Positions 18,132-64,000 of a DNA stretch of 64,000 nucleotides are shown here, one piece after another (the stretch's first letter is position 1; each line of letters starts with the position of its first letter). The notes under the pieces are model-generated. The model did not search any database. It was given only the letters and a program-made list of their open reading frames with translations, and was not told the DNA's origin. The position numbers and the translations under genes are program-made. The DNA comes from Lagopus muta. Its lineage: Eukaryota > Chordata > Aves > Galliformes > Phasianidae. The DNA lies in NCBI RefSeq assembly GCF_023343835.1, contig NC_064447.1, positions 14,323,501 through 14,387,500 of the forward strand, in the 5' to 3' direction.

Positions 18132-18280
18132 TTAGCCAGGTGTAGCTCGTGGCTTAAGGAAAAAGCAGAAGGGACAAGTTTTAAAATCCTTATTTTCCTG
18201 CATTCATATGTCTTCTAGCAAGTTTCTGAAAGCTTCTGTTTTTGAAGCTGAGATTTGGTCAGGTTGACCACAAGATGATT

Positions 18281-18286
18281 AATAAA
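18281..18286 (+). terminator. Candidate polyadenylation signal AATAAA
   Basis: Canonical hexamer about 300 bp before the array begins; the last such site before the tandem repeats. Confidence 0.3.
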
Positions 18287-18589: not shown

Positions 18590-20333
18590 AAGCCTTCAAT
18601 ACTCAAACGAAAAAAACCATCAAAGCCAACAACTTTTCAACAAAAACGAACACTTCACATCATCAGAATCGACTGCTTTAGACATCTCATCGCTGCAATC
18701 AGTGAGTTTACCCATCAACCAAAACAACACTTTTTAGCCATCAACACTTTAGACATCTCAATGCTCCCATCAGTGACTTTAACTATCAAGCAAAACCAAC
18801 ACTTCTTAGCCATCATACTTTAGCCATCCCAACACTCCCATCAGTGACTTTACCTATCAGTCAAAACCAACACCTTTCAGCCATCAATACTTTAGACATT
18901 CCAATATTGTTATGAGTGACTTTAAATATCAATCAAAACCAACACCTTTTAGCCAGCAATACTTCAGCCATTCCAATGCTCCCATTAGTGACTTTAACTA
19001 TCAATCAAAACAAACACCTTTTAGCCATCAATACTTTAGCAATCCAAACACTCCCATCAGTGACATTAAATATCAATTAAAATGCACAACTTTTAGCCAT
19101 CAATACTTTAGCCATCCCAACACTCACATCAGTAACTTAAACTCAGTCAAAAACAGCACCTTGTAGTCATCAATATTTAGCCATGACAGTACTCCGATCA
19201 GTGACTTTAACCACCAGTCAAAACCTACACATTTTAGCCAGCAAAAGTTTAGCCATGCCAGTATTCCCATCAGTGACTTTAACTATAAATAAGGACCAAC
19301 ACCTTTTAGCCATCAATACTTTAACCATCCCAATACTCCCATGAGTGACATTAAGTATCAATGAAAACCAACATCATTTAGCCATCAATACTTCAGACAT
19401 CCCATTGCTGCCATCTGTGACATTAGCCATTAACCTTTTAGCATCGTTACAGTAACCATCCCAGCGGTCCCATCAGAGACCGCTGTGACGGTGACAGTAA
19501 CAATCAAAGCCAACACAATGTAGCTATCAATATTCTAGCCATAACAACACCCTAATCAGTGACTTCAACCATCACTCACAACCAAGACCTTTTACCCATC
19601 CATACTTCAGACATTCCGATGTTCCTATCAGTGACATTAGCCATCAATAAAAACCAACAACTGTTAGCCCTCAATAGTTAGACCATGCCAGGGCTCCCAT
19701 TAGTGACTTGAATGATCAGTTAAAACCCAGTACTCCCAATCTGTGACTTTAACTAACCATCAGAACCAACAACTTTTGGCCATCAATACTTCAGCCATGT
19801 CATCTTCCCGATCAGTGACATCAGTCACAACCAAGACCTTGTAGCCATCAGATCTTCAGCCATGCCAGCCTTCCCATCAGTGACTATAACCATCACTCAC
19901 AACCAAGACCTTTTACCCATCCATACTTCAGACATTCCGATGTTCCTATCAGTGACATTAACCATCAATAAAAACCAACAACTGTTAGCCCTCAATAGTT
20001 AGACCATGCCAGGGCTCCCATTAGTAACTTGAATCATCAGTCAAAACCCAGTACTCTCAATCTGTGACTTTAACTAACCATCAGAACCAACAACTTTTGG
20101 CTATCAGCACTTCAGCCATGCCAGCCTTCCCATCAGTGACCATCAGTCACAACCAAGACCTTGTAGCCATCAGATCTTCAGCCATGCCAGCCTTCCCATC
20201 AGTGACATTAACCATCACTCACAACCAAGACCTTTTAGCCATCAGATCTTCAGCCATGCCAGCCTTCAGTGACTATAACCATCACTCACAACCAAGACCT
20301 TGTAGCCATCAGATCTTCAGCCATGCCAGCCTT
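18590..20333. repeat. Degenerate left edge of the array
   Basis: Monomers here are diverged from the interior consensus (TTTTAGCC for TTTAAGCC; ATCCCAACACTCC for GCCAGCCCTCC; AAAACC for ACAACC) and are A/T-richer. Early unit heads at 18771 and 18842 are 71 bp apart. Two copies of the landmark cassette with TTCCGATGTTCCTATCAGTG lie 321 bp apart, at 19614 and 19935, and the same cassette recurs in the interior blocks. Confidence 0.9.
19463..19484. repeat. Perfect 7-bp inverted repeat unique to the array edge
   Basis: AGCGGTC (19463-19469), eight-base spacer, GACCGCT (19478-19484). It is flanked by GTTACAGTAAC and GTGACGGTGACAGTAAC. It could form a hairpin. I did not see it elsewhere in the array. 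Confidence 0.6.
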
Positions 20334-21732
20334 ATGAGTGACTATAAACATCAGTCACAATCAATAAATTTTAGACACGACTTCTTTAGCTACACCAACC
20401 CCCCTATCAGTGACTTTAACCATGATTCACAACCAACACCTCTTAGCCATGACTTCTTCACACATGCCAGCCCTCCAATCAGTGACTTTAACCATGAGTC
20501 ACAACCAACACCTTTAAGCCACCAGAACATCAGCCACCCCAGCCCTCCCATCAATGACATTTTCCATCAGTCCTAGGGAGCACCATTTAACCAGAAATTA
20601 TTTAGGGTCGCCAACCCTCCCATCAGTGACTTGAACCATCAGTCACAACCAACACCTTTAAGCCATCAGAACAGCACTCACCCCAGCCCTCCCATCAGTG
20701 ACATTTTCCATCAGTCACAACAGACACCTTTAAGCCATCAGTACCTCAGCCTCGACAGCCTTCCAACCAGTGACTTTAACCACCAGTTACAAGAAAAACC
20801 TTCATACCAGCCATACTTTAGCCTCACCAGCCCTCCCACCAATGACTTTTAACCATCAGTCACAAACAGCATTTCTAAGCCATCAGTACCACAGCCTCGC
20901 CAGCCCTCCCATCAGTGACTTGAGCCATCAGTCACAACCAACACCTTTAAGCCAGCAATACTTTAGACACGCCAGCCCTGCCACCACTGACTTGAACCAA
21001 TAGCCACAACCAGGACCTTTAAGCCATCAGTACTTCAGCCTCGCCAGCCCTCCCAACAGTGACAATTTCCATCAGTCACATGAACAACCATAAGCCAGCC
21101 ACCCTTTAGACACGCCAGCCCTCCCATCAGTGACTTTAACCATCAGTCACAACCAACACCTTTAAGTCATCAGAACATCAGCCTCGCCAGCCCTCCCACC
21201 AGTGACATGTTACATCAATCACAAGAAGAACCATCATGCCAGCCACCCTTTAGCCATGCCAGCCCTCCCATCAGTGACATTTTCCATCAGTCACAACAGA
21301 CACCTTTAAGCCATCAGTACCTCAGCCTCGCCTGCCCTCCCATCAGTGACTTGAACCATCAGTCACAGCAAAAACCTTTATGACAGCCATACTTTAGCCA
21401 AGCCAGCCCTCCCATCAGTGACTATAGCCATCACTCACAACCAAGACCTTTTACCCATCCATACTTCAGACATTCCGATGTTCCTATCAGTGACATTAAC
21501 CATCAATAAAAACCAACAACTGTTAGCCCTCAATAGTTAGACCATGCCAGGGCTCCCATTAGTGACGTGAATGATCAGTTAAAACCCAGTACTCCCAATC
21601 TGTGACTTTAACTAACCATCAGAACCGACAACTTTTGGCCATCAATACTTCAGCCATGCCAGCCTTCCTATCAGTGACCATCAGTCACAACCAAGACCTT
21701 GTAGCCATCAGATCTTCAGCCATGCCAGCCTT
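20334..21732. repeat. Higher-order block 1 (1,399 bp, short form)
   Basis: Blocks are delimited here by the landmark ATGAGTGACTATAAACATCA. This one carries CAATCAATAAATTT and CCATGACTTCTTC variants that recur only in block 14 (59753), and is almost the same length (1,395 bp there). Confidence 0.8.
20495..20501 (+). promoter_or_regulatory. Array-borne AP-1/bZIP heptamer TGAGTCA (first of 16)
   Basis: A perfect TGAGTCA in ACCATGAGTCACAACC lies 161 bp after each block landmark. The others start at 21894, 25234, 27751, 31165, 34505, 37990, 41259, 44673, 48086, 51500, 54007, 56013, 58519, 59914 and 61917. Other monomers have CAGTCAC or ATTCACA at this place. Sequence identity is seen; function is unknown. 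Confidence 0.6.
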
Positions 21733-24700
21733 ATGAGTGACTATAAACATCAGTCACAATCCATAAATTTTAGACACGACTTCTTTAGCTACACCAACCC
21801 CCCTATCAGAGACTTTAACCATGATTCACAACCAACACCTCTTAGCCATGTCTTCTTCACACATGCCAGCCCTCCAATCAGTGACTTTAACCATGAGTCA
21901 CAACCAACACCTTTAAGCCACCAGAACATCAGCCACCCCAGCCCTCCCATCAATGACATTTTCCATCAGTCCTAGGGAACACCATTTAACCAGAAATTAT
22001 TTAGGGTCGCCAACCCTCCCATCAGTGACTTGAACCATCAGTCACAACCAACACCTTTAAGCCATCAGTACCTCAGCCTCGCCAGCCCTCCCACCAGTGA
22101 CAATTTCCATCAGTCACATGAACAACCATCATGCCAGCCACACTTTAGCCTCAGCAGCCCTCCCAGCAGTGACTTTAACCATCAGTCACAATAACCATCA
22201 TGCCAGCCACCCTTTAGACACGCCAGCCCTCCCATCGGTGACTTTAACCATCAGTCACAACCAACACCTTGAAGTCATCAGAACATCAGCCTCGCCAGCC
22301 CTCCCACCAGTGACATGTTACATCAATCACAAGAAAAACCATCATGCCAGCCACTCTTTAGTCATGCCAGCCCTCCCATCAGTGACATTTTCCATCAGTC
22401 ACAACAGACACCTTTAAGCCATCAGTACCTCAGCCTCGACAGCCTTCCAACCAGTGACTTTAACCACCAGTTACAAGAAAAACCTTCATGCCAGCCATAC
22501 TTTAGCCTCGCCAGCCCTCCCACCAATGACTTTTAACCATCAGTCACAAACAGCATCTCTAAGCCACCTGTACCACAGCCTCGCCAGCCCTCCCATCAGT
22601 GACTTGAACCATCAGTCACAACCAACACCTTTAAGCCAGACATACTGTAGCCACGCCAGCCCTGCCACCACTGACTTGAACCAATAGCCACAACCAGGAC
22701 CTTTAAGCCATCAGTACCTCAGCCTCGCCAGCCCTCCCACCAGTGACTTTAACCATCAGTCACAGCAAAAACCTTTATGACAGCCATACTTTAGCCATGC
22801 CAGTCTCCCATCAGTGACTATAGCCATCACTCACAACCAAGGCCTTTTACCCATCCATACTTCAGACATTCCGATGTTCCTATCAGTGACATTAACCATC
22901 AATAAAAACCAACAACTGTTAGCCCTCAATAGTTAGACCATGCCAGGGCTCCCATTAGTGACTTGAATGATCAGTTAAAACCCAGCACTCCCAATCTGTG
23001 ACTTTAACTAACCATCAGAACCGACAACTTTTGGCCATCAATACTTCAGCCATGCCAGCCTTCCCAATCCGTGACTTGAACCATCAGTCACAACCAACAC
23101 CTTTAAGCCAGCCATACTTTAGCCACGCCAGCCCCGCCACCACTGACTTTAACCAATAGCCACAACCAGGACCTTTAAGCCATCAGTACCTCAGCCTCGC
23201 CAGCCCTCCCACCAGTGACAATTTCCATCAGTCACATGAACAACCATCATGCCAGCCACACTTTAGCCTCGCCAGCCCTCCCATCAGTGACTTTAACCAC
23301 CAGTCACAATAACCATCATGCCAGCCACACTTTAGCCTCGCCAGCCCTCCCATCAGTGACTTTAACCACCAGTCACAATAACCATCATGCCAGCCACACT
23401 TTAGCCTCGCCAGCCCGCACACCAGTGACATGTTACATCAATCACAAGAAGAACCATAATGCCAGCCACTCTTTAGCCATGCCAGCCCTCCCATCAGTGA
23501 CATTTTCCATCAGTCACATGAACAACCATAAGCCAGCCACACTTTAGCCTCGCCAGCCCTCCCAGCAGTGACTTTAACCATCAGTCACAATAAACATCAT
23601 GCCAGCCACCCTTTAGACACGCCAGCCCTCCCATCAGTGACTTCAACCATCAGTCACAACCAACACCTTTAAGCCATCAGAACATCAGCCTCGCCAGCCC
23701 TCCCACCAGTGACATGTTACATCAATCACAAGAAGAACCATCATGCCAGCCACTCTTTAGCCATGCCAGCCCTCCCATCAGTGACATTTTCCATCAGTCA
23801 CAACAGACACCTTTAAGCCATCAGTACCTCAGCCTCGCCAGCCCTCCCATTAGTGACTTGAACCATCAGTCACAGCAAAAACCTTTATGACAGCCATACT
23901 TTAGCCAAGCCAGCCCTCCCATCAGTGACTATAGCCTTCACTCACAACCAAGACCTTTTACCCATCCATACTTCAGACATTCCGATGTTCCTATCAGTGA
24001 CATTAACCATCAATAAAAACCAACAACTGTTAGCCCTCAATAGTTAGACCATGCCAGGGCTCCCATTAGTGACTTGAATGATCAGTTAAAACCCAGTACT
24101 CCCAATCTGTGACTTTAACTAACCATCAGAACCGACAACTTTTGGCCATCAATACTTCAGCCATGCCAGCCTTCCCAATCCGTGACTTGAACCATCAGTC
24201 ACAACCAACACCTTTAAGCCAGCCATACTTTAGCCACGCCAGCCCTGCCACCACTGACTTGAACCAATAGCCACAACCAAGACCTTTAAGCCATCAGTAC
24301 CTCAGCCTCGCCAGCCCTCCCACCAGTGACAATTTCCATCAGTCACATGAACAACCATCATGCCAGCCACACTTTAGCCTCGCCAGCCCTCCCAGCAGTG
24401 ACTTTAACCACCAGTCACAACAATAATGATCATGCCAGCCACCCTTTAGACACGCCAGCCCTCCCATCAGTGACTTTAACCATCAGTCACAACCAACACC
24501 ATTAAGTCATCAGAACATCAGCCTCGCCAGCCCTCCCACCAGTGACATGTTACATCAATCACAAGAAGAACCATCATGCCAGCCACCCTTTAGCCATGCC
24601 AGACCTCCCATCAGTGACATTTTCCATCAGTCACAACAGACACCTTTAAGCCATCAGTACCTCAGCCTCGCCTGCCCTCCCATCAGTGACTTGAACCATC

Positions 24701-25072
24701 AGTCACAGCAAAAACCTTTATGACAGCCATACTTTAGCCAAGCCAGCCCTCCCATCAGTGACTATAGCCATCACTCACAACCAAGACCTTTTACCCATCC
24801 ATACTTCAGACATTCCGATGTTCCTATCAGTGACATTAACCATCAATAAAAACCAACAACTGTTAGCCCTCAATAGTTAGACCATGCCAGGGCTCCCATT
24901 AGTGACGTGAATGATCAGTTAAAACCCAGTACTCCCAATCTGTGACTTTAACTAACCATCAGAACCGACAACTTTTGGCCATCAATACTTCAGCCATGCC
25001 AGCCTTCCTATCAGTGACCATCAGTCACAACCAAGACCTTGTAGCCATCAGATCTTCAGCCATGCCAGCCTT
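21733..25072. repeat. Higher-order block 2 (3,340 bp)
   Basis: Carries the TATCAGAGACTTTAACC variant. Internal markers match block 5 (31004) at a constant shift of 9,271 bp, including the three-fold direct repeat at 23215-23547. Confidence 0.85.
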
Positions 25073-27589
25073 ATGAGTGACTATAAACATCAGTCACAAT
25101 CCATAAATTTTAGACACGACTTCTTTAGCTACACCAACCCCCCTATCAGTGACTTTAACCATGATTCACAACCAACACCTCTTAGCCATGTCTTCTTCAC
25201 ACATGCCAGCCCTCCAATCAGTGACTTTAACCATGAGTCACAACCAACACCTTTAAGCCACCAGAACATCAGCCACCCCAGCCCTCCCATCAATGACATT
25301 TTCCATCAGTCCTAGGGAACACCATTTAACCAGAAATTATTTAGGGTCGCCAACCCTCCCATCAGTGACTTGAACCATCAGTCACAACCAACACCTTTAA
25401 GCCATCAGTACCTCAGCCTCGCCAGCCCTCCCACCAGTGACAATTTCCATCAGTCACATGAACAACCATCATGCCAGCCACACTTTAGCCTCAGCAGCCC
25501 TCCCAGCAGTGACTTTAACCATCAGTCACAATAACCATCATGCCAGCCACCCTTTAGACACGCCAGCCCTCCCATCGGTGACTTTAACCATCAGTCACAA
25601 CCAACACCTTGAAGTCATCAGAACATCAGCCTCGCCAGCCCTCCCACCAGTGACATGTTACATCAATCACAAGAAAAACCTTCATGCCAGCCATACTTTA
25701 GCCTCGCCAGCCCTCCCACCAATGACTTTTAACCATCAGTCACAAACAGCATCTCTAAGCCACCTGTACCACAGCCTCGCCAGCCCTCCCACCAGTGACA
25801 TGTTACATCAATCACAAGAAAAACCATCATGCCAGCCACTCTTTAGTCATGCCAGCCCTCCCATCAGTGACATTTTCCATCAGTCACAACAGACACCTTT
25901 AAGCCATCAGTACCTCAGCCTCGACAGCCTTCCAACCAGTGACTTTAACCACCAGTTACAAGAAAAACCTTCATGCCAGCCATACTTTAGCCTCGCCAGC
26001 CCTCCCACCAATGACTTTTAACCATCAGTCACAAACAGCATCTCTAAGCCACCTGTACCACAGCCTCGCCAGCCCTCCCATCAGTGACTTGAACCATCAG
26101 TCACAACCAACACCTTTAAGCCAGACATACTGTAGCCACGCCAGCCCTGCCACCACTGACTTGAACCAATAGCCACAACCAGGACCTCTAAGCCATCAGT
26201 ACCTCAGCCTCGCCAGCCCTCCCATCAGTGACTTGAACCATCAGTCACAGCAAAAACCTTTATGACAGCCATACTTTAGCCAAGCCAGTCTCCCATCAGT
26301 GACTATAGCCTTCACTCACAACCAAGACCTTTTACCCATCCATACTTCAGACATTCCGATGTTCCTATCAGTGACATCAACCATCAATAAAAACCAACAA
26401 CTGTTAGCCCTCAATAGTTAGACCATGCCAGGGCTCCCATTAGTGACTTGAATGATCAGTTAAAACCCAGTACTCCCAATCTGTGACTTTAACTAACCAT
26501 CAGAACCGACAACTTTTGGCCATCAATACTTCAGCCATGCCAGCCTTCCCAATCCGTGACTTGAACCATCAGTCACAACCAACACCTTTAAGCCAGCCAT
26601 ACTTTAGCCACGCCAGCCCTGCCACCACTGACTTGAACCAATAGCCACAACCAAGACCTTTAAGCCATCAGTACCTCAGCCTCGCCAGCCCTCCCACCAG
26701 TGACAATTTCCATCAGTCACATGAACAACCATAAGCCAGCCACTCTTTAGCCATACCAGCCCTCCCACCAGTGACTTTAACCATCAGTCACAGCAAAAAC
26801 CTTTATGACAGCCATACTTTAGCCAAGCCAGCCCTCCCATCAGTGACAATTTCCATCAGTCACATGAACAACCATCATGCCAGCCACACTTTAGCCTCGC
26901 CAGCCCTCCCAGCAGTGACTTTAACCACCAGTCACAACAATAATGATCATGCCAGCCACCCTTTAGAAACACCAGCCCTCCCATCAGTGACTTTAACCAT
27001 CAGTCACAACCAACACCATTAAGTCATCAGAACATCAGCCTCGCCAGCCCTCCCACCAGTGACATGTTACATCAATCACAAGAAGAACCATCATGCCAGC
27101 CACCCTTTAGCCATGCCAGACCTCCCATCAGTGACATTTTCCATCAGTCACAACAGACACCTTTAAGCCATCAGTACCTCAGCCTCGCCTGCCCTCCCAT
27201 CAGTGACTTGAACCATCAGTCACAGCAAAAACCTTTATGACAGCCATACTTTAGCCAAGCCAGCCCTCCCATCAGTGACTATAGCCATCACTCACAACCA
27301 AGACCTTTTACCCATCCATACTTCAGACATTCCGATGTTCCTATCAGTGACATTAACCATCAATAAAAACCAACAACTGTTAGCCCTCAATAGTTAGACC
27401 ATGCCAGGGCTCCCATTAGTGACGTGAATGATCAGTTAAAACCCAGTACTCCCAATCTGTGACTTTAACTAACCATCAGAACCGACAACTTTTGGCCATC
27501 AATACTTCAGCCATGCCAGCCTTCCTATCAGTGACCATCAGTCACAACCAAGACCTTGTAGCCATCAGATCTTCAGCCATGCCAGCCTT
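25073..27589. repeat. Higher-order block 3 (2,517 bp, deletion form)
   Basis: The first 1.1 kb matches block 6 (34344) at a shift of 9,271 bp, including AGGACCTCTAAGCC at 26182/35453. It then joins the second half typical of block 7, so about 0.9 kb of the full block is missing. Contains the longest open run (25437-26021). Confidence 0.85.
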
Positions 27590-30500
27590 ATGAGTGACTA
27601 TAAACATCAGTCACAATCCATAAATTTTAGACACGACTTCTTTAGCTACACCAACCCCCCTATCAGAGACTTTAACCATGATTCACAACCAACACCTCTT
27701 AGCCATGTCTTCTTCACACATGCCAGCCCTCCAATCAGTGACTTTAACCATGAGTCACAACCAACACCTTTAAGCCACCAGAACATCAGCCACCCCAGCC
27801 CTCCCATCAATGACATTTTCCATCAGTCCTAGGGAACACCATTTAACCAGAAATTATTTAGGGTCGCCAACCCTCCCATCAGTGACTTGAACCATCAGTC
27901 ACAACCAACACCTTTAAGCCATCAGTACCTCAGCCTCGCCAGCCCTCCCACCAGTGACAATTTCCATCAGTCACATGAACAACCATCATGCCAGCCACAC
28001 TTTAGCCTCAGCAGCCCTCCCAGCAGTGACTTTAACCATCAGTCACAATAACCATCATGCCAGCCACCCTTTAGACACGCCAGCCCTCCCATCGGTGACT
28101 TTAACCATCAGTTACAACCAACACCTTGAAGTCATCAGAACATCAGCCTCGCCAGCCCTCCCACCAGTGACATGTTACATCAATCACAAGAAAAACCATC
28201 ATGCCAGCCACTCTTTAGTCATGCCAGCCCTCCCATCAGTGACATTTTCCATCAGTCACAACAGACACCTTTAAGCCATCAGTACCTCAGCCTCGACAGC
28301 CTTCCAACCAGTGACTTTAACCACCAGTTACAAGAAAAACCTTCATGCCAGCCATACTTTAGCCTCGCCAGCCCTCCCACCAATGACTTTTAACCATCAG
28401 TCACAAACAGCATCTCTAAGCCACCTGTACCACAGCCTCGCCAGCCCTCCCATCAGTGACTTGAACCATCAGTCACAACCAACACCTTTAAGCCAGCCAT
28501 ACTGTAGCCACACCAGCCCTGCCACCACTGACTTGAACCAATAGCCACAACCAGGACCTTTAAGCCATCAGTACCTCAGCCTCGCCAGCCCTCCCACCAG
28601 TGACTTTAACCATCAGTCACAGCAAAAACCTTTATGACAGCCATACTTTAGCCATGCCAGTCTCCCATCAGTGACTATAGCCATCACTCATAACCAAGGC
28701 CTTTTACCCATCCATACTTCAGACATTCCGATGTTCCTATCAGTGACATTAACCATCAATAAAAACCAACAACTGTTAGCCCTCAATAGTTAGACCATGC
28801 CAGGGCTCCCATTAGTGACTTGAATGATCAGTTAAAACCCAGTACTCCCAATCTGTGACTTTAACTAACCATCAGAACCGACAACTTTTGGCCATCAATA
28901 CTTCAGCCATGCCAGCCTTCCCAATCCGTGACTTGAACCATCAGTCACAACCAACACCTTTAAGCCAGCCATACTTTAGCCACGCCAGCCCCGCCACCAC
29001 TGACTTTAACCAATAGCCACAACCAGGACCTTTAAGCCATCAGTACCTCAGCCTCGCCAGCCCTCCCACCAGTGACAATTTCCATCAGTCACATGAACAA
29101 CCATCATGCCAGCCACACTTTAGCCTCGCCAGCCCTCCCATCAGTGACTTTAACCACCAGTCACTATAACCATCATGCCAGCCACACTTTAGCCTCGCCA
29201 GCCCGCACACCAGTGACATGTTACATCAATCACAAGAAGAACCATAATGCCAGCCACTCTTTAGCCATGCCAGCCCTCCCATCAGTGACATTTTCCATCA
29301 GTCACATGAACAACCATAAGCCAGCCACACTTTAGCCTCGCCAGCCCTCCCAGCAGTGACTTTAACCATCAGTCACAATAAACATCATGCCAGCCACCCT
29401 TTAGACACGCCAGCCCTCCCATCAGTGACTTCAACCATCAGTCACAACCAACACCTTTAAGCCATCAGAACATCAGCCTCGCCAGCCCTCCCACCAGTGA
29501 CATGTTACATCAATCACAAGAAGAACCATCATGCCAGCCACTCTTTAGCCATGCCAGCCCTCCCATCAGTGACATTTTCCATCAGTCACAACAGACACCT
29601 TTAAGCCATCAGTACCTCAGCCTCGCCAGCCCTCCCATCAGTGACTTGAACCATCAGTCACAGCAAAAACCTTTATGACAGCCATACTTTAGCCAAGCCA
29701 GCCCTCCCATCAGTGACTATAGCCTTCACTCACAACCAAGACCTTTTACCCATCCATTCTTCAGACATTCCGATGTTCCTATCAGTGACATTAACCATCA
29801 ATAAAAACCAACAACTGTTAGCCCTCAATAGTTAGACCATGCCAGGGCTCCCATTAGTGACTTGAATGATCAGTTAAAACCCAGTACTCCCAATCTGTGA
29901 CTTTAACTAACCATCAGAACCAACAACTTTTGGCCATCAATACTTCAGCCATGCCAGCCTTCCCAATCCGTGACTTGAACCATCAGTCACAACCAACGCC
30001 TTTAAGCCAGCCATACTTTAGCCACGCCAGCCCTGCCACCACTGACTTGAACCAATAGCCACAACCAAGACCTTTAAGCCATCAGTACCTCAGCCTCGCC
30101 AGCCCTCCCACCAGTGACAATTTCCATCAGTCACATGAACAACCATAAGCCAGCCACTCTTTAGCCATACCAGCCCTCCCACCAGTGACTTTAACCATCA
30201 GTCACAGCAAAAACCTTTATGACAGCCATACTTTAGCCAAGCCAGCCCTCCCATCAGTGACAATTTCCATCAGTCACATGAACAACCATCATGCCAGCCA
30301 CACTTTAGCCTCGCCAGCCCTCCCAGCAGTGACTTTAACCACCAGTCACAACAATAATGATCATGCCAGCCACCCTTTAGAAACACCAGCCCTCCCATCA
30401 GTGACTTTAACCATCAGTCACAACCAACACCTTTAAGTCATCAGAACATCAGCCTCGCCAGCCCTCCCACCAGTGACATGTTACATCAATCACAAGAAGA

Positions 30501-31003
30501 ACCATCATGCCAGCCACCCTTTAGCCATGCCAGCCCTCCCATCAGTGACATTTTCCATCAGTCACAACAGACACCTTTAAGCCATCAGTACCTCAGCCTC
30601 GCCTGCCCTCCCATCAGTGACTTGAACCATCAGTCACAGCAAAAACCTTTATGACAGCCATACTTTAGCCAAGCCAGCCCTCCCATCAGTGACTATAGCC
30701 ATCACTCACAACCAAGACCTTTTACCCATCCATACTTCAGACATTCCGATGTTCCTATCAGTGACATTAACCATCAATAAAAACCAACAACTGTTAGCCC
30801 TCAATAGTTAGACCATGCCAGGGCTCCCATTAGTGACGTGAATGATCAGTTAAAACCCAGTACTCCCAATCTGTGACTTTAACTAACCATCAGAACCGAC
30901 AACTTTTGGCCATCAATACTTCAGCCATGCCAGCCTTCCTATCAGTGACCATCAGTCACAACCAAGACCTTGTAGCCATCAGATCTTCAGCCATGCCAGC
31001 CTT
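27590..31003. repeat. Higher-order block 4 (3,414 bp)
   Basis: Canonical length. Has TATCAGAGAC, CAGTTACAACC, CACTATAACC (near 29163) and CCATTCTTCAG variants; shares all four with block 10 (47925) and three with block 8 (41098). Confidence 0.88.
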
Positions 31004-34000: not shown

Positions 34001-34343
34001 TACTTTAGCCAAGCCAGCCCTCCCATCAGTGACTATAGCCATCACTCACAACCAAGACCTTTTACCCATCCATACTTCAGACATTCCGATGTTCCTATCA
34101 GTGACATTAACCATCAATAAAAACCAACAACTGTTAGCCCTCAATAGTTAGACCATGCCAGGGCTCCCATTAGTGACGTGAATGATCAGTTAAAACCCAG
34201 TACTCCCAATCTGTGACTTTAACTAACCATCAGAACCGACAACTTTTGGCCATCAATACTTCAGCCATGCCAGCCTTCCTATCAGTGACCATCAGTCACA
34301 ACCAAGACCTTGTAGCCATCAGATCTTCAGCCATGCCAGCCTT
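31004..34343. repeat. Higher-order block 5 (3,340 bp)
   Basis: Counterpart of block 2 at +9,271 bp, with the same three-fold direct repeat (32486-32818). 74 bp, one monomer, shorter than the canonical block. Confidence 0.88.
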
Positions 34344-50900: not shown

Positions 50901-51338
50901 AACAGACACCTTTAAGCCATCAGTACCTCAGCCTCGCCTGCCCTCCCATCAGTGACTTGAACCATCAGTCACAGCAAAAACCTTTATGACAGCCATACTT
51001 TAGCCAAGCCAGCCCTCCCATCAGTGACTATAGCCATCACTCACAACCAAGACCTTTTACCCATCCATACTTCAGACATTCCGATGTTCCTATCAGTGAC
51101 ATTAACCATCAATAAAAACCAACAACTGTTAGCCCTCAATAGTTAGACCATGCCAGGGCTCCCATTAGTGACGTGAATGATCAGTTAAAACCCAGTACTC
51201 CCAATCTGTGACTTTAACTAACCATCAGAACCGACAACTTTTGGCCATCAATACTTCAGCCATGCCAGCCTTCCTATCAGTGACCATCAGTCACAACCAA
51301 GACCTTGTAGCCATCAGATCTTCAGCCATGCCAGCCTT
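47925..51338. repeat. Higher-order block 10 (3,414 bp)
   Basis: Copy of block 8 at +6,827 bp. It also shares the private CACTATAACC variant of block 4, which is 20,335 bp to the left. Confidence 0.9.
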
Positions 51339-53845
51339 ATGAGTGACTATAAACATCAGTCACAATCCATAAATTTTAGACACGACTTCTTTAGCTACAC
51401 CAACCCCCCTATCAGTGACTTTAACCATGATTCACAACCAACACCTCTTAGCCATGTCTTCTTCACATATTCCAGCCCTCCAATCAGTGACTTTAACCAT
51501 GAGTCACAACCAACACCTTTAAGCCACCAGAACATCAGCCACCCCAGCCCTCCCATCAATGACATTTTCCATCAGTCCTAGGGAACACCATTTAACCAGA
51601 AATTATTTAGGGTCGCCAACCCTCCCATCAGTGACTTGAACCATCAGTCACAACCAACACCTTTAAGCCATCAGTACCTCAGCCTCGCCAGCCCTCCCAC
51701 CAGTGACAATTTCCATCAGTCACATGAACAACCATCATGCCAGCCACACTTTAGCCTCAGCAGCCCTCCCAGCAGTGACTTTAACCATCAGTCACAATAA
51801 CCATCATGCCAGCCACCCTTTAGACACGCCAGCCCTCCCATCGGTGACTTTAACCATCAGTCACAACCAACACCTTGAAGTCATCAGAACATCAGCCTCG
51901 CCAGCCCTCCCACCAGTGACATGTTACATCAATCACAAGAAAAACCATCATGCCAGCCACTCTTTAGTCATGCCAGCCCTCCCATCAGTGACATTTTCCA
52001 TCAGTCACAACAGACACCTTTAAGCCATCAGTACCTCAGCCTCGACAGCCTTCCAACCAGTGACTTTAACCACCAGTTACAAGAAAAACCTTCATGCCAG
52101 CCATACTTTAGCCTCGCCAGCCCTCCCACCAATGACTTTTAACCATCAGTCACAAACAGCATCTCTAAGCCACCTGTACCACAGCCTCGCCAGCCCTCCC
52201 ATCAGTGACTTGAACCATCAGTCACAACCAACACCTTTAAGCCAGACATACTGTAGCCACGCCAGCCCTGCCACCACTGACTTGAACCAATAGCCACAAA
52301 AAGGACCTTTAAGCCATCAGTACCTCAGCCTCGCCAGCCCTCCCACCAGTGACTTTAACCATCAGTCACAGCAAAAACCTTTATGACAGCCATACTTTAG
52401 CCATGCCAGTCTCCCATCAGTGACTATAGCCATCACTCACAACCAAGGCCTTTTACCCATCCATACTTCAGACATTCCGATGTTCCTATCAGTGACATTA
52501 ACCATCAATAAAAACCAACAACTGTTAGCCCTCAATAGTTAGACCATGCCAGGGCTCCCATTAGTGACTTGAATGATCAGTTAAAACCCAGCACTCCCAA
52601 TCTGTGACTTTAACTAACCATCAGAACCGACAACTTTTGGCCATCAATACTTCAGCCATGCCAGCCTTCCCAATCCGTGACTTGAACCATCAGTCACAAC
52701 CAACACCTTTAAGCCAGCCATACTTTAGCCACGCCAGCCCCGCCACCACTGACTTTAACCAATAGCCACAACCAGGACCTTTAAGCCATCAGTACCTCAG
52801 CCTCGCCAGCCCTCCCACCAGTGACAATTTCCATCAGTCACATGAACAACCATCATGCCAGCCACACTTTAGCCTCGCCAGCCCTCCCATCAGTGACTTT
52901 AACCACCAGTCACAATAACCATCATGCCAGCCACACTTTAGCCTCGCCAGCCCTCCCATCAGTGACTTTAACCACCAGTCACAATAACCATCATGCCAGC
53001 CACACTTTAGCCTCGCCAGCCCGCACACCAGTGACATGTTACATCAATCACAAGAAGAACCATAATGCCAGCCACTCTTTAGCCATGCCAGCCCTCCCAT
53101 CAGTGACATTTTCCATCAGTCACATGAACAACCATAAGCCAGCCACACTTTAGCCTCGCCAGCCCTCCCAGCAGTGACTTTAACCATCAGTCACAATAAA
53201 CATCATGCCAGCCACCCTTTAGACACGCCAGCCCTCCCATCAGTGACTTCAACCATCAGTCACAACCAACACCTTTAAGCCATCAGAACATCAGCCTCGC
53301 CAGCCCTCCCACCAGTGACATGTTACATCAATCACAAGAAGAACCATCATGCCAGCCACTCTTTAGCCATGCCAGCCCTCCCATCAGTGACATTTTCCAT
53401 CAGTCACAACAGACACCTTTAAGCCATCAGTACCTCAGCCTCGCCAGCCCTCCCATCAGTGACTTGAACCATCAGTCACAGCAAAAACCTTAATGCCAGC
53501 CATACTTTAGCCAAGCCAGCCCTCCCATCAGTGACTATAGCCTTCACTCACAACCAAGACCTTTTACCCATCCATACTTCAGACATTCCGATGTTCCTAT
53601 CAGTGACATTAACCATCAATAAAAACCAACAACTGTTAGCCCTCAATAGTTAGAGCATGCCAGGGCTCCCATTAGTGACTTGAATGATCAGTTAAAACCC
53701 AGTACTCCCAATCTGTGACTTTAACTAACCATCAGAACCGACAACCTTAGGCCATCAATACTTCAGCCATGCCAGCCTTCCCATCAGTGACCATCAGTCA
53801 CAACCAAGACCTTGTAGCCATCAGATCTTCAGCCATGCCAGCCTT
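51339..53845. repeat. Higher-order block 11 (2,507 bp)
   Basis: Begins as a copy of block 9 (CATATTCC and CACAAAAAGG variants) but switches near 52,900 to a three-fold repeat form (52821-53153) and then skips to the next landmark, so it is a recombinant, shortened block. Confidence 0.86.
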
Positions 53846-55851
53846 ATGAGTGACTATAAACATCAGTCACAATCCATAAATTTTAGACACGACGTCTTTA
53901 GCTACACCAATCCCCCTATCAGTGACTTTAACCATGATTCACAACCAACACCTCTTAGCCATGACTTCTTCACACATGCCAGCCCTCCAATCAGTGACTT
54001 TAACCATGAGTCACAACCAACACCTTTAAACCACCAGAACATCAGCCACCCCAGCCCTCCCATCAATGACATTTTCCATCAGTCCTAGGGAACACCATTT
54101 AACCAGAAATTATTTAGGGTCGCCAACCCTCCCATCAGTGACTTGAACCATCAGTCACAACCAACACCTTTAAGCCATCAGTACCTCAGCCTCGCCAGCC
54201 CTCCCACCAGTGACAATTTCCATCAGTCACATGAACAACCATCATGCCAGCCACACTTTAGCCTCGCCAGCCCTCCCACCAGTGACTTTAACCACCAGTC
54301 ACAACAATAACCATCATGCCAGCCACCCTTTAGACACGCCAGCCCTCCCATCAGTGACTTTAAACATCAGTCACAACCAACACCTTTAAGTCATCAGAAC
54401 ATAAGCCTCGCCAGCCCTCCCACCAGTGACATGTTACATCAATCACAAGAATTACCATCATGCCAGCCACTCTTTAGCCATGCCAGCCCTCCCGTCAGTG
54501 ACATTTTCCATCAGTCACAACAGTCACCTTTAAGCCATCAGTACCTCAGCCTCGCCAGCCCTCCCACCAGTGACTTTAACCATCAGTCACAGCAAAAACC
54601 TTTATGACAGCCATACTTTAGCCATGCCAGTCTCCCATCAGTGACTATAGCCATCACTCACAACCAAGACCTTTTACCCTTCCATACTTCAGACATTCCG
54701 ATGTTCCTATCAGTGACATTAACCATCAATAAAAACCAACAACTGTTAGCCCTCAATAGTTAGAGCATGCCAGGGCTCCCATTAGTGACTTGAATGATCA
54801 GTTAAAACCCAGCACTCCCAATCTGTGACTTTAACTAACCATCAGAACCGACAACTTTTGGCCATCAATACTTCAGCCATGCCAGCCTTCCCATCAGTGA
54901 CTTGAACCATCAGTCACAACCAACACCTTTAAGCCAGCCATACTTTAGCCACGCCAGCCCCGCCACCACTGACTTTAACCAATAGCCACAACCCAGACCT
55001 TTAAGCCATCAGTACCTCAGCCTCGCCAGCCCTCCCAGCAGTGACAATTTCCATCAGTCACATGAACAACCATCATGCCAGCCACACTTTAGCCTCGCCA
55101 GCCCTCCCAGCAGTGACTTTAACCACCAGTCACAACAATAACCATCATGCCAGCCACCCTTTAGACACGCCAGCCCTCCCATCAGTGACTTTAACCACCA
55201 GTCACAATAACCATCATGCCAGCCACACTTTAGCCTCGCCAGCCCGCACACCAGTGACATGTTACATCAATCACAAGAAGAACCATAATGCCAGCCACTC
55301 TTTAGCCATGCCAGCCCTCCCATCAGTGACATTTTCCATCAGTCACATGAACAACCATAAGCCAGCCACACTTTAGCCTCGCCAGCCCTCCCAGCAGTGA
55401 CTTTAACCATCAGTCACAATAAACATCATGCCAGCCACCCTTTAGACACGCCAGCCCTCCCATCAGTGACTTCAACCATCAGTCACAGCAAAAACCTTTA
55501 TGACAGCCATACTTTAGCCATGCCAGTCTCCCATCAGTGACTATAGCCATCACTCACAACCAAGACCTTTTACCCATCCATACTTCAGACATTCCGATGT
55601 TCCTATCAGTGCCATTAACCATCAATAAAAACCAACAACTGTTAGCCCTCAATAGTTAGACCATGCCAGGGCTCCCATTAGTGACTTGAATGATCAGTTA
55701 AAACCCAGTACTCCCAATCTGTGACTTTAACTAACCATCAGAACCGACAACTTTTGGCCATCAATACTTCAGCCATGCCAGCCTTCCCATCAGTGACCAT
55801 CAGTCACAACCAAGACCTTGTAGCCATCAGATCTTCAGCCATGCCAGCCTT
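53846..55851. repeat. Higher-order block 12 (2,006 bp)
   Basis: Shares the ACGACGTCTTTAGC variant with block 13b at 58358 (shift 4,512 bp). Has a private TTTAAACCACC change and a recombined second half with mixed monomer types. Confidence 0.84.
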
Positions 55852-58357
55852 ATGAGTGACTATAAACATCAGTCACAATCCATAAATTTTAGACACGACT
55901 TCTTTAGCTACACCAACCCCCCTATCAGTGACTTTAACCATGATTCACAACCAACACCTCTTAGCCATGTCTTCTTCACACATGCCAGCCCTCCAATCAG
56001 TGACTTTAACCATGAGTCACAACCAACACCTTTAAGCCACCAGAACATCAGCCACCCCAGCCCTCCCATCAATGACATTTTCCATCAGTCCTAGGGAACA
56101 CCATTTAACCAGAAATTATTTAGGGTCGCCAACCCTCCCATCAGTGACTTGAACCATCAGTCACAACCAACACCTTTAAGCCATCAGTACCTCAGCCTCG
56201 CCAGCCCTCCCACCAGTGACAATTTCCATCAGTCACATGAACAACCATAAGCCAGCCACACTTTAGCCTCAGCAGCCCTCCCAGCAGTGACTTTAACCAT
56301 CAGTCACAATAACCATCATGCCAGCCTCCCTTTAGACACGCCAGCCCTCCCATCGGTGACTTTAACCATCAGTCACAACCAACACCTTGAAGTCATCAGA
56401 ACATCAGCCTCGCCAGACCTCCCACCAGTGACATGTTACATCAATCACAAGAAGAACCATCATGCCAGCCACTCTTTAGTCATGCCAGCCCTCCCATCAG
56501 TGACATTTTCCATCAGTCACAACAGACACCTTTAAGCCATCAGTACCTCAGCCTCGACAGCCTTCCAACCAGTGACTTTAACCACCAGTTACAAGAAAAA
56601 CCTTCATGCCAGCCATACTTTAGCCTCGCCAGCCCTCCCACCAATGACTTTTAACCATCAGTCACAAACAGCATCTCTAAGCCATCTGTACCACAGCCTC
56701 GCCAGCCCTCCCATCAGTGACTTGAGCCATCAGTCACATCCAACACCTTTAAGCCAGCCATACTGTAGCCACGCCAGCCCTGCCACCACTGACTTGAACC
56801 AATAGCCACAACCAGGACCTTTAAGCCATCAGTACCTCAGCCTCGCCAGCCCTCCCACCAGTGACTTTAACCATCAGTCACAGCAAAAACCTTTATGACA
56901 GCCATACTTTAGCCATGCCAGTCTCCCATCAGTGACTATAGCCATCACTCACAACCAAGACCTTTTACCCATCCATACTTCAGACATTCCGATGTTCCTA
57001 TCAGTGACATTAACCATCAATAAAAACCAACAACTGTTAGCCCTCAATAGTTAGAGCATGCCAGGGCTCCCATTAGTGACTTGAATGATCAGTTAAAACC
57101 CAGTACTCCCAATCTGTGACTTTAACTAACCATCAGAACCGACAACCTTTGGCCATCAATACTTCAGCCATGCCAGCCTTCCCAATCCGTGACTTGAACC
57201 ATCAGTCACAACCAACACCTTTAAGCCAGCCATACTTTAGCCACGCCAGCCCCGCCACCACTGACTTTAACCAATAGCCACAACCAGGACCTTTAAGCCA
57301 TCAGTACCTCAGCCTCGCCAGCCCTCCCACCAGTGACAATTTCCATCAGTCACATGAACAACCATCATGCCAGCCACACTTTAGCCTCGCCAGCCCTCCC
57401 ATCAGTGACTTTAACCACCAGTCACAATAACCATCATGCCAGCCACACTTTAGCCTCGCCAGCCCTCCCATCAGTGACTTTAACCACCAGTCACAATAAC
57501 CATCATGCCAGCCACACTTTAGCCTCGCCAGCCCGCACACCAGTGACATGTTACATCAATCACAAGAAGAACCATAATGCCAGCCACTCTTTAGCCATGC
57601 CAGCCCTCCCATCAGTGACATTTTCCATCAGTCACATGAACAACCATAAGCCAGCCACACTTTAGCCTCGCCAGCCCTCCCAGCAGTGACTTTAACCATC
57701 AGTCACAATAAACATCATGCCAGCCACCCTTTAGACACGCCAGCCCTCCCATCAGTGACTTCAACCATCAGTCACAACCAACACCTTTAAGCCATCAGAA
57801 CATCAGCCTCGCCAGCCCTCCCACCAGTGACATGTTACATCAATCACAAGAAGAACCATCATGCCAGCCACTCTTTAGCCATGCCAGCCCTCCCATCAGT
57901 GACATTTTCCATCAGTCACAACAGACACCTTTAAGCCATCAGTACCTCAGCCTCGCCAGCCCTCCCATCAGTGACTTGAACCATCAGTCACAGCAAAAAC
58001 CTTAATGCCAGCCATACTTTAGCCAAGCCAGCCCTCCCATCAGTGACTATAGCCTTCACTCACAACCAAGACCTTTTACCCATCCATTCTTCAGACATTC
58101 CGATGTTCCTATCAGTGACATTAACCATCAATAAAAACCAACAACTGTTAGCCCTCAATAGTTAGAGCATGCCAGGGCTCCCATTAGTGACTTGAATGAT
58201 CAGTTAAAACCCAGTACTCCCAATCTGTGACTTTAACTAACCATCAGAACCGACAACCTTAGGCCATCAATACTTCAGCCATGCCAGCCTTCCCATCAGT
58301 GACCATCAGTCACAACCAAGACCTTGTAGCCATCAGATCTTCAGCCATGCCAGCCTT
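55852..58357. repeat. Higher-order block 13a (2,506 bp)
   Basis: First kilobase matches the block at 58358 with a 2,506-bp shift (CCAGCCTCCCTTTAG, CCAGACCTCCC, CACATCCAACACC). Second kilobase matches block 11/12 with a 4,512-bp shift. Confidence 0.85.
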
Positions 58358-59752
58358 ATGAGTGACTATAAACATCAGTCACAATCCATAAATTTTAGAC
58401 ACGACGTCTTTAGCTACACCAATCCCCCTATCAGTGACTTTAACCATGATTCACAACCAACACCTCTTAGCCATGACTTCTTCACACATGCCAGCCCTCC
58501 AATCAGTGACTTTAACCATGAGTCACAACCAACACCTTTAAGCCACCAGAACATCAGCCACCCCAGCCCTCCCATCAATGACATTTTCCATCAGTCCTAG
58601 GGAACACCATTTAACCAGAAATTATTTAGGGTCGCCAACCCTCCCATCAGTGACTTGAACCATCAGTCACAACCAACACCTTTAAGCCATCAGTACCTCA
58701 GCCTCGCCAGCCCTCCCACCAGTGACAATTTCCATCAGTCACATGAACAACCATAAGCCAGCCACACTTTAGCCTCAGCAGCCCTCCCAGCAGTGACTTT
58801 AACCATCAGTCACAATAACCATCATGCCAGCCTCCCTTTAGACACGCCAGCCCTCCCATCGGTGACTTTAACCATCAGTCACAACCAACACCTTGAAGTC
58901 ATCAGAACATCAGCCTCGCCAGACCTCCCACCAGTGACATGTTACATCAATCACAAGAAGAACCATCATGCCAGCCACTCTTTAGTCATGCCAGCCCTCC
59001 CATCAGTGACATTTTCCATCAGTCACAACAGACACCTTTAAGCCATCAGTACCTCAGCCTCGACAGCCTTCCAACCAGTGACTTTAACCACCAGTTACAA
59101 GAAAAACCTTCATGCCAGCCATACTTTAGCCTCGCCAGCCCTCCCACCAATGACTTTTAACCATCAGTCACAAACAGCATCTCTAAGCCATCTGTACCAC
59201 AGCCTCGCCAGCCCTCCCATCAGTGACTTGAGCCATCAGTCACATCCAACACCTTTAAGCCAGCCATACTGTAGCCACGCCAGCCCTGCCACCACTGACT
59301 TGAACCAATAGCCACAACCAGGACCTTTAAGCCATCAGTACCTCAGCCTCGCCAGCCCTCCCACCAGTGACTTTAACCATCAGTCACAGCAAAAACCTTT
59401 ATGACAGCCATACTTTAGCCATGCCAGTCTCCCATCAGTGACTATAGCCATCACTCACAACCAAGACCTTTTACCCATCCATACTTCAGACATTCCGATG
59501 TTCCTATCAGTGACATTAACCATCAATAAAAACCAACAACTGTTAGCCCTCAATAGTTAGAGCATGCCAGGGCTCCCATTAGTGACTTGAATGATCAGTT
59601 AAAACCCAGTACTCCCAATCTGTGACTTTAACTAACCATCAGAACCGACAACCTTAGGCCATCAATACTTCAGCCATGCCAGCCTTCCCATCAGTGACCA
59701 TCAGTCACAACCAAGACCTTGTAGCCATCAGATCTTCAGCCATGCCAGCCTT
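58358..59752. repeat. Higher-order block 13b (1,395 bp, short form)
   Basis: Carries ACGACGTCTTTAGC as in block 12 and the CACATCCAACACC markers of block 13a. The length is close to that of block 1. Confidence 0.85.
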
Positions 59753-61755
59753 ATGAGTGACTATAAACATCAGTCACAATCAATAAATTTTAGACACGAC
59801 TTCTTTAGCTACACCAACCCCCCTATCAGTGACTTTAACCATGATTCACAACCAACACCTCTTAGCCATGACTTCTTCACACATGCCAGCCCTCCAATCA
59901 GTGACTTTAACCATGAGTCACAACCAACACCTTTAAGCCACCAGAACATCAGCCACCCCAGCCCTCCCATCAAAGACATTTTCCAACCAACACCTTTAAG
60001 CCATCAGTATCTCAGCCTCGCCAGCCCTCCCACCAGTGACAATTTCCATCAGTCACATGAACAACCATCATGCCAGCCACACTTTAGCCTCAGCAGCCCT
60101 CCCAGCAGTGACTTTAACCATCAGTCACAATAACCATCATGCCAGCCACCCTTTAGCCTCAGCAGCCCTCCCATCAGTGACTTTAACCATCAGTCACAAC
60201 CAACACCTTTAAGTCATCAGAACATCAGCCTCGCCAGCCCTCCCACCAGTGACATGTTACATCAATCACAAGAAGAACCATCATGCCAGCCACCCTTTAG
60301 CCATGACAGACCTCCCATCAGTGACATTTTCCATCAGTCACAACAGACACCTTTAAGCCATCAGTACCTCAGCCTCGCCAGCCCTCCCATCAGTGACTTG
60401 AACCATCAGTCACAGCAAAAACCTTTATGACAGCCATACTTTAGCCAAGCCAGCCCTCCCATCAGTGACTATAGCCATCACTCACAACCAAGACCTTTTA
60501 CCCATCCATACTTCAGACATTCCGATGTTCCTATCAGTGACATCAACCATCAATAAAAACCAACAACTGTTAGCCCTCAATAGTTAGACCATGCCAGGGC
60601 TCCCATTAGTGACTTGAATGATCAGTTAAAACCCAGTACTCCCAATCTGTGACTTTAACAAACCATCAGAACCGACAACTTTTGGCCATCAATACTTCAG
60701 CCATGCCAGCCTTCCCAATCCGTGACTTGAACCATCAGTCACAACCAACGCCTTTAAGCCAGCCATACTTTAGCCACGCCAGCCCCGCCACCACTGACTT
60801 GAACCAATAGCCACAACCAAGACCTTTAAGCCATCAGTACCTCAGCCTCGCCAGCCCTCCCACCAGTGACAATTTCCATCAGTCACATGAACAACCATAA
60901 GCCAGCCACTCTTTAGCCATACCAGCCCTCCCACCAGTGACTTTAACCATCAGTCACAGCAAAAACCTTTATGACAGCCATACTTTAGCCAAGCCAGCCC
61001 TCCCATCAGTGACAATTTCCATCAGTCACATGAACAACCATCATGCCAGCCACACTTTAGCCTCGCCAGCCCTCCCAGCAGTGACTTTAACCACCAGTCA
61101 CAACAATAATGATCATGCCAGCCACCCTTTAGACACGCCAGCCCTCCCATCAGTGACTTTAACCATCAGTCACAACCAACACCATTAAGTCATCAGAACA
61201 TCAGCCTCGCCAGCCCTCCCACCAGTGACATGTTACATCAATCACAAGAAGAACCATCATGCCAGCCACCCTTTAGCCATGCCAGCCCTCCCATCAGTGA
61301 CATTTTCCATCAGTCACAACAGACACCTTTAAGCCATCAGTACCTCAGCCTCGCCTGCCCTCCCATCAGTGACTTGAACCATCAGTCACAGCAAAAACCT
61401 TTATGACAGCCATACTTTAGCCAAGCCAGCCCTCCCATCAGTGACTATAGCCATCACTCACAACCAAGACCTTTTACCCATCCATACTTCAGACATTCCG
61501 ATGTTCCTATCAGTGACATTAACCATCAATAAAAACCAACAACTGTTAGCCCTCAATAGTTAGACCATGCCAGGGCTCCCATTAGTGACGTGAATGATCA
61601 GTTAAAACCCAGTACTCCCAATCTGTGACTTTAACTAACCATCAGAACCGACAACTTTTGGCCATCAATACTTCAGCCATGCCAGCCTTCCTATCAGTGA
61701 CCATCAGTCACAACCAAGACCTTGTAGCCATCAGATCTTCAGCCATGCCAGCCTT
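59753..61755. repeat. Higher-order block 14 (2,003 bp)
   Basis: Has the CAATCAATAAATTT variant of block 1. The usual TCCTAGGGAACACC landmark monomer is deleted near 59,985, leaving a 126-codon open run (59753-60133). Confidence 0.85.
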
Positions 61756-64000
61756 ATGAGTGACTATAAACATCAGTCACAATCCATAAATTTTAGACAC
61801 GACTTCTTTAGCTACACCAACCCCCCTATCAGTGACTTTAACCATGATTCACAACCAACACCTCTTAGCCATGTCTTCTTCACACATGCCAGCCCTCCAA
61901 TCAGTGACTTTAACCATGAGTCACAACCAACACCTTTAAGCCACCAGAACATCAGCCACCCCAGCCCTCCCATCAATGACATTTTCCATCAGTCCTAGGG
62001 AACACCATTTAACCAGAAATTATTTAGGGTCGCCAACCCTCCCATCAGTGACTTGAACCATCAGTCACAACCAACACCTTTAAGCCATCAGTACCTCAGC
62101 CTCGCCAGCCCTCCCACCAGTGACAATTTCCATCAGTCACATGAACAACCATAAGCCAGCCACACTTTAGCCTCAGCAGCCCTCCCACCAGTGACTTTAA
62201 CCACCAGTCACAACAATAATGATCATGCCAGCCACCCTTTAGACACGCCAGCCCTCCCATCAGTGACTTGAACCATCAGTCACAACCAACACCTTTAAGC
62301 CATAAGAACAGCGCTCACGCCCGCCCTCCCATCAGTGACATTTTCCATCAGTCACAACAGACACCTGTAAGCCATCAGTACCTCTGCTTCGACAGCCTTC
62401 CAACCAGTGACTTTAACCACCAGTTACAAGAAAAACCTTCATGCCAGCCATACTTTAGCCTCGCCAGCCCTCCCACCAATGACTTTTAACCATCAGTCAC
62501 AAACAGCATCTCTAAGCCACCTGTACCACAGCCTCGCCAGCCCTCCCATCAGTGACTTGAACCATCAGTCACAACCAACACCTTTAAGCCAGCCATACTG
62601 TAGCCACGCCAGCCCTGCCACCACTGACTTGAACCAATAGCCACAACCAGGACCTTTAAGCCATCAGTACCTCAGCCTCGCCAGCCCTCCCACCAGTGAC
62701 TTTAACCATCAGTCACAGCAAAAACCTTAATGCCAGCCATACTTTAGCCATGCCAGTCTCCCATCAGTGACTATAGCCTTCACTCACAACCAAGGCCTTT
62801 TACCCATCCATACTTCAGACATTCCGATGTTCCTATCAGTGACATTAACCATCAATAAAAACCAACAACTGTTAGCCCTCAATAGTTAGACCATGCCAGG
62901 GCTCCCATTAGTGACTTGAATGATCAGTTAAAACCCAGTACTCCCAATCTGTGACTTTAACTAACCATCAGAACCGACAACCTTTGGCCATCAATACTTC
63001 AGCCATGCCAGCCTTCCCAATCCGTGACTTGAACCATCAGTCACAACCAACGCCTTTAAGCCAGCCATACTTTAGCCACGCCAGCCCCGCCACCACTGAC
63101 TTTAACCAATAGCCACAACCAAGACCTTTAAGCCATCAGTACCTCAGCCTCGCCAGCCCTCCCACCAGTGACAATTTCCATCAGTCACATGAACAACCAT
63201 AAGCCAGCCACTCTTTAGCCATACCAGCCCTCCTACCAGTGACTTTAACCATCAGTCACAGCAAAAACCTTTATGACAGCCATACTTTAGCCAAGCCAGC
63301 CCTCCCATCAGTGACAATTTCCATCAGTCACATGAACAACCATCATGCCAGCCACACTTTAGCCTCGCCAGCCCTCCCAGCAGTGACTTTAACCACCAGT
63401 CACAACAATAATGATCATGCCAGCCACCCTTTAGACACGCCAGCCCTCCCATCAGTGACTTGAACCATCAGTCACAACCAACACCTTTAAGTCATCAGAA
63501 CATCAGCCTCACCAGCCCTCCCACCAGTGACATGTTACATCAATCACAAGAAGAACCATCATGCCAGCCACTCTTTAGCCATGCCAGCCCTCCCATCAGT
63601 GACATTTTCCATCAGTCACAACAGACACCTTTAAGCCATCAGTACCTCAGCCTCGCCTGCCCTCCCATCAGTGACTTGAACCATCAGTCACAGCAAAAAC
63701 CTTTATGACAGCCATACTTTAGCCTCGCCAGCCCTCCCACCAATGACTTTTAACCATCAGCCACAAACAGCATCTCTAAGCCATCAGTACCACAGCATCT
63801 CCAGCCCTCCCATCAGTGACTTGAACCATCAGTCACAACCAACACCTTTAAGCCAGCCAAACTTTTGCCTCGCCAGCCCTCCCACCAGTGACATGTTACA
63901 TCAATCACAAGAAGAACCATAATGCCAGCCACTCTTTAGTCATGCCAGCCCTCCCATCAGTGACATTTTCCATCAGTCACAACAAAAAACAACTTTAAGC
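61756..64000. repeat. Higher-order block 15 (partial, runs off the right edge)
   Basis: At least 2,245 bp. The array shows no sign of ending at 64000. The last few hundred bases carry private changes such as CAACAAAAAACAACTTTAAG, possibly the start of another variant zone. Confidence 0.85.

Follow-up and report, generated by a model that had tools for sequence, protein, structure and literature searches.

The genomic stretch considered here is a window of 64,000 nucleotides from Lagopus muta (contig NC_064447.1, below C18, positions 14,323,501-14,387,500), taken from a genome of 1,026,658,476 bases in 165 contigs; coordinates above 64,000 are C18 positions minus 14,323,500. The left part of the window carries an EIF2AK1 exon and a USP42-type ubiquitin hydrolase gene, and most of the remainder is a tandem array of ~72-bp monomers with a layered higher-order organisation. 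USP42 and LITAF converge on the array, which occupies the interval between them, with coding sequence ending ~2 kb to its left and ~9 kb to its right.

An earlier note on this DNA had reported at least 45 kb of ~72-bp monomers, a figure borne out by Tandem Repeats Finder (TRF), self-comparison and decomposition into monomers; it covers nearly the whole array, which ends at ~66,610, ~2.6 kb beyond the window, and totals ~48 kb. Checking the window by self-comparison and tandem-repeat analysis recovered both the 72-bp period and a peak at 3,414 bp. TRF found arrays of several periods, 72 bp among them, that begin at 18,698 and extend almost to the end of the window, and the self-comparison of 18,698-64,000 gave an identity of 0.585 at the 72-bp offset versus a median of 0.278, with further peaks at 3,414, 6,827 and 13,508 bp. 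Wrap-around alignment to the consensus divided 18,690-64,000 into 652 monomers, with a mean identity to the consensus of 0.80 and a length of exactly 72 bp in 450 of them; the full array decomposes into 691 monomers, including two partial end pieces. All monomers stand head to tail in one orientation, and the array read on the minus strand scores at background. The left boundary is faint from ~18,550 and clear from 18,698. On the right, the next 200 kb past the window were scanned in windows sampled every 200 bp, and beyond ~66,610 the monomer similarity of the sampled windows stays at background through ~262 kb. This flank holds three small arrays past the satellite (TRF, score 100) and a single run of 72 N at 239,636.

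The monomers of the window fall into 45 types (clustering at an average distance of 0.08), and their order is highly repetitive: the longest word of types to recur is 104 monomers long, whereas the labels shuffled 100 times give 3.6 on average and never more than 5. Adjacent monomers within the array are on average only 0.69 identical, while interior copies of the multi-monomer subunits described below are 0-0.9% apart, which is the hallmark of higher-order structure, blocks being far more alike than neighbouring monomers. Truncated monomers of ~43 bp provide the landmarks, with types 13 and 14 before them and type 16 after them in 39 of 39 cases. The array was cut at these cassettes and the pieces, mostly of 12-22 monomers, were named by eye from the label strings. 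The window contains 16 copies of subunit A (nine of 1,395-1,396 bp), 11 of subunit B (five of 1,041-1,042 bp, five of 1,111 bp, one of 896 bp) and 11 of subunit C (seven of 976 bp, three of 833 bp and one of 1,094 bp that the end of the window truncates). The subunit alignments exclude a 321-bp piece at 19,699. In 19,555-20,243, next to the diverged monomers of the left edge, a 321-bp unit with the truncated-monomer cassette occurs as two repeats at 95% identity. Among the higher-order elements of the array, this cassette may be the earliest or the most mobile.

A regular block consists of A, B and C in this order, with 49 monomers (20+15+14) and 3,413-3,414 bp. The A subunits of the regular stretch start at 27415, 30829, 34169, 37654, 40923, 44337, 47750 and 51164, and the resulting intervals (3414, 3340, 3485, 3269, 3414, 3413 and 3414) reproduce exactly the seven landmark spacings given in the earlier note. 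The count of ~47 monomers per block given there has to be raised to 49, because some monomers are truncated. The gain or loss of one or two monomers between blocks describes the net change correctly but conceals more internal events; in the 3,340-bp block, for instance, B is one monomer longer and C two monomers shorter. The regular A-B-C order spans ~27.4-52.6 kb, and the order of subunits is irregular on both sides of it.

Differences among the 10 A, 9 B and 9 C copies of 21.5-52.6 kb amount to 0-0.9% when gap columns are excluded. At offsets of 500-30,000 the longest exact repeats measure 4,414 bp (offset 9,271), 4,243 bp (offset 20,335) and 3,734 bp (offset 6,827), followed by runs of 3,088 bp at two offsets and of 2,976 bp. 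There are zero differences among the A copies at 27415, 40923 and 47750; the A copy at 44337 equals that at 51164, yet this pair is distinct from the other three. The variant strings indicate that the 6,827-bp (6.83-kb) double block forms a separate level above the 3.41-kb block. Exact multi-kb duplicates, several of them without any difference and all judged from the assembly alone, would also be expected if the array were real but smaller and its near-identical blocks had been duplicated by the assembler. We regard such inflation as very unlikely. The exact copies lie at several offsets, with differing end points and mosaic variants, and would require several separate events; the array contains zero N and the contig is capped by at least 10 kb of telomere repeat, which speaks for a high-grade assembly; and the layers and both edges would stand even with a wrong number of blocks.

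Divergence is distributed unevenly along the array (Table 1). From left to right, the median identity of a monomer to its best other monomer is 0.82 (13 monomers), 0.99 (27), 1.00 (447), 1.00 (162), 0.92 (23) and 0.81 (17), and the share of core monomers with a twin at least 97% identical rounds to 1.00. The first A-type subunit, at 20,020, differs by 7.3-12.1% from the other A copies. To the right of 53 kb the A copies are 0.4-5.7% from one another and from the interior A copies, the last C copy is 5.8-7.0% diverged, and past the window similarity falls off until, by 66.6 kb, the monomers are old ones.

Table 1. Coordinates of the array, its zones, one example block and the neighbouring genes.
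Feature	Position	Strand	Basis or remark
Whole array, ~72-bp monomers	18600..64000, on to ~66,610 (C18:14,390,110)	+	TRF, decomposition, edge scans
Left edge	18624..19554	+	13 diverged monomers without higher-order structure, best-twin median 0.82
Left transition	19555..21413	+	cassettes 92-100% like commonest core forms
Homogeneous core, 447 monomers	21414..52559	+	holds the seven regular intervals, 27,415-51,164
Right shoulder	52560..64000	+	irregular subunit order, copies 0.3-7.0% from own kind
Example A subunit, 20 monomers, 1,396 bp	27415..28810	+	label strings
Example B subunit, 15 monomers, 1,042 bp	28811..29852	+	label strings
Example C subunit, 14 monomers, 976 bp	29853..30828	+	label strings; closes 3,414-bp block
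EIF2AK1 exon (heme-regulated eIF2-alpha kinase)	490..640	-	Pfam HRI2_3H, E=3.1e-8, 33.8 bits vs cut-off 27
USP42-type ubiquitin hydrolase, exons seen between these points	4886..16533	+	Pfam UCH exons
LITAF-type zinc ribbon, two exons	76,127-76,312 and 75,543-75,674	-	E 6.6e-11 and 2.1e-12
Stannin (SNN)	97,355-97,666	+	three Pfam models

The genomic distribution of the repeat was assessed by counting two patterns taken from the monomer. The first occurs 135 times in the array and 135 times genome-wide, the second 149 times in both; on the other strand both patterns have 0 copies genome-wide, as does a reversed-pattern control. Judged by these two counts, the 72-bp repeat is apparently a locus-specific tandem repeat. 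It is a short unit, repeated head to tail at one locus with other DNA on both sides, as is typical of minisatellites, and its ~48 kb of 1.027 Gb amount neither to many loci nor to a sizeable share of the genome, as an abundant satellite would. The 'very large satellite' of the earlier note is therefore better termed a giant minisatellite, since it is bounded at both ends, measures ~48 kb and is placed at a single site by the pattern counts. A 41-bp consensus pattern, being a composite, matched nowhere exactly, and DNA-mode genome searches, whose listed matches all lay in the last 9 kb of the array and which missed the remainder and, in one case, the query's own copy, were not used for the single-locus claim. 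One exact pattern searched against genome contigs and two against viral contigs in other collections found no copies of the array. A CR1 3'-end motif has no match in the window. An origin of the monomer in the USP42 region was considered and rejected, the best match in 1-18,590 being 12 bp long with E=0.19.

As put forward in the earlier note, a gene pair adjoins the higher-order structure: EIF2AK1 on the minus strand (Pfam HRI2_3H) and a USP42-type hydrolase on the plus strand (Pfam UCH). A PDB search with the EIF2AK1 exon, at E up to 1, gave no match. The best PDB match of the hydrolase is USP36; we take the gene to be USP42 from its synteny with EIF2AK1 and from protein features. Its downstream frames (12,409-16,533) were assigned by position and eye; none of them has a Pfam match above the cut-off, and the last has only a sub-cut-off match to an unrelated family. 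AATAAA signals occur at 16,747, 18,126 and 18,281, the last two 0.3-0.5 kb ahead of the array. EIF2AK1 and the hydrolase gene are arranged head to head, separated by a few kb (640-4,886) that include a GC-rich stretch (~1-3 kb); in human the separation of EIF2AK1 and USP42 is tens of kb, far wider than here.

At the high end of C18 the final 10 kb (C18:15,337,147-15,347,146) consist entirely of the AGGGTT repeat with 99% matches, so the assembled telomere is at least 10 kb long. This end of the contig is 0.957 Mb from the array, and telomere repeat is absent from 10 kb at the low end. CYTH3 was tried as the right-hand neighbour of the array and rejected: a protein query had no match in 264 kb, and the neighbour is LITAF. 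Sec7 matches number 30 in the genome, three of them on this contig at C18:6,432,167-6,438,994; this Sec7 gene, 7.9 Mb off, could be CYTH3, which adjoins USP42 in human. Human USP42 resides on 7p22.1, and LITAF and SNN on 16p13.13. The interval from USP42 through the array to LITAF (16,500-75,600) is a possible synteny breakpoint. That the array marks, or perhaps drove, a chromosome rearrangement between USP42 and LITAF seems doubtful to us. If true, it would provide a recombination-prone minisatellite at a synteny breakpoint that is still growing through its own repeated exchange, and breakpoint fragility could be followed at one locus.

The layered structure, with a young core and old edges, also invites a centromeric interpretation, in which the array would be a centromeric or pericentromeric satellite carrying a kinetochore on its higher-order blocks, as alphoid DNA or chicken CNM does. 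The 49-monomer block falls within the 26-98 monomers given for chicken CNM in the available part of the source (PMC9974502), and an acrocentric position is conceivable for an array 0.96 Mb from the telomeric end of the contig. Some chicken centromeres lack tandem repeats, according to the portion of the report at hand (PMC11745021), so that small size alone is not decisive. But the array comprises only ~48 kb, coding sequence ends near it on both sides, and its monomer is 72 bp, not 41 bp, long. The following 197 kb are free of the monomer in the sampled windows and contain only three tiny TRF arrays, and genes continue there. In the window there are 0 matches on either strand to the CENP-B box, a mammalian-type motif that may not apply to birds, and the double telomere repeat was not found. 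Size and gene flanks make a centromere unlikely at this locus, and with all points considered we hold the centromeric interpretation to be very improbable. Alphoid-like layering alone is uninformative on centromere function.

The composition of the array bears on another explanation, that it serves as a termination zone, insulator or chromatin boundary of USP42 and LITAF, or as a source of non-coding RNA, and is under selection. The array takes up the space between two 3' ends that converge, and its strands are markedly asymmetric throughout (A 30, C 35, G 13, T 22%). Its CpG ratio is 0.226, versus 0.294 in 3,001-18,500. Among 135 distinct monomers, the sole CpG of the consensus (monomer columns 60-61) reads CG in 57, TG in 36 and CA in 11; the C/T variation at this site would be consistent with germline methylation of the array, and together with the low CpG ratio it would suit a functional spacer. 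Transcription of other avian tandem repeats, described in the accessible parts of two papers (PMC7151628, PMC4301066), points the same way. On the other hand, the window contains no Rfam family at the gathering threshold, and the dyad GTGACT/AGTCAC of the monomer gives little sign of constraint: 52 of 135 distinct monomers retain it intact, versus 47.7 (sd 2.8) when its arms are shuffled, and it is changed on both sides in only 2 cells. Recombination alone accounts for what is seen, and a selected spacer function appears quite unlikely. No open frame runs across the repeats, the longest stop-to-stop frames within the array being 206 amino acids. Two further candidates were rejected: the dyad as a conserved binding or folding element, as it folds in DNA and RNA models but shows little covariation, and helical phasing, as the periods of AT dinucleotides are harmonics of 72 bp and 10.28 bp is the weakest of 14 listed.

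We interpret the array as a locus-specific giant minisatellite, or variable number of tandem repeats (VNTR), with layered higher-order structure, situated between USP42 and LITAF (probability ~0.82). In the course of events that we envisage, a 72-bp repeat between the two convergent genes would have multiplied head to tail. A cassette with the ~43-bp truncated monomer spread through the array and marks each subunit, as shown by the identical neighbours of all 39 truncated monomers. The A, B and C subunits would have been joined into the 3.4-kb block, and this block would lately have been copied in steps of one, two or more blocks, a recent copying proposed because mosaic exact copies are observed. 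Out-of-register recombination, that is, unequal sister-chromatid exchange, gene conversion or break-induced replication, is the most likely engine; it would keep the core near-identical and leave old diverged monomers at both edges. A near-identical core with old diverged edges is the signature of repeated unequal exchange, and the array needs no function to be explained. With an avian substitution rate of ~2e-9 per site per year, 0 differences in 4.4 kb imply that the youngest copies would be less than ~0.2 million years old. A minisatellite of this kind should be length-polymorphic between individuals, and its transcription may occur only by read-through from USP42 and LITAF.

Several points weigh against the minisatellite interpretation. 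It relies on one assembled sequence, in which the varying length that defines a VNTR is not observed, and an assembly effect could account for part of the near-perfect identity. Counts of just two patterns are compatible with very diverged relatives elsewhere. The array could also be a boundary or termination zone. The centromere of C18 has not been located, the sequence to the right of the array having been read to ~14.59 Mb and in the final 10 kb.

As a giant minisatellite the array is ordinary in kind and at the same time a tidy model for the growth of higher-order repeats. It is a compact, bounded example of how they originate, leading within ~48 kb from old edge monomers to double blocks free of differences, and the order of events can be read at one locus without megabases of centromere. 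If length-polymorphic, as is expected, it could serve family studies as a marker located between two genes.

No prior description of the monomer, the block or the locus was recognised in the full-text literature, a search that did not cover repeat libraries and most subscription papers. The closest published kind is the large locus-specific tandem arrays of human, mostly VNTRs, surveyed in a paper of which part was available (PMC2588610). That part reports 16 human arrays above 10 kb with units of 20-1,823 bp; save for one of 246 kb, they are described as classical VNTRs of up to 50 kb outside known repeat classes. The Lagopus array differs from them in monomer and species, and in having three nested levels above the monomer together with a cassette that marks the subunits. 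The same section of the survey records higher-order structure outside human centromeres as well, in simple-sequence and long terminal repeat (LTR)-derived arrays (PMC2588610). The earlier note had found alphoid-like structure striking next to a gene on a chromosome arm, such structure being usual in centromeres. Diverged monomers without higher order beside near-identical multi-monomer blocks are a feature shared with alpha satellite, as far as the available text describes it (PMC2588610) and as is generally known; the array differs in its monomer of 72 bp, not 171 bp, and in forming one ~48-kb locus between genes. Among avian repeats, chicken CNM resembles it in that divergent monomers form blocks, of 26-98 monomers there and 49 here, in a comparison with the accessible description (PMC9974502), not with the sequence. 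The unit of CNM is 41 bp, and 72 bp lies outside the 41-42 bp of the CNM/PO41 kind; the Lagopus repeat is also confined to one locus. Chicken LL2R of chromosome 2, likewise compared by what the available part of its description says (PMC7151628), offers a parallel of another sort, a particular tandem repeat residing at one avian locus.

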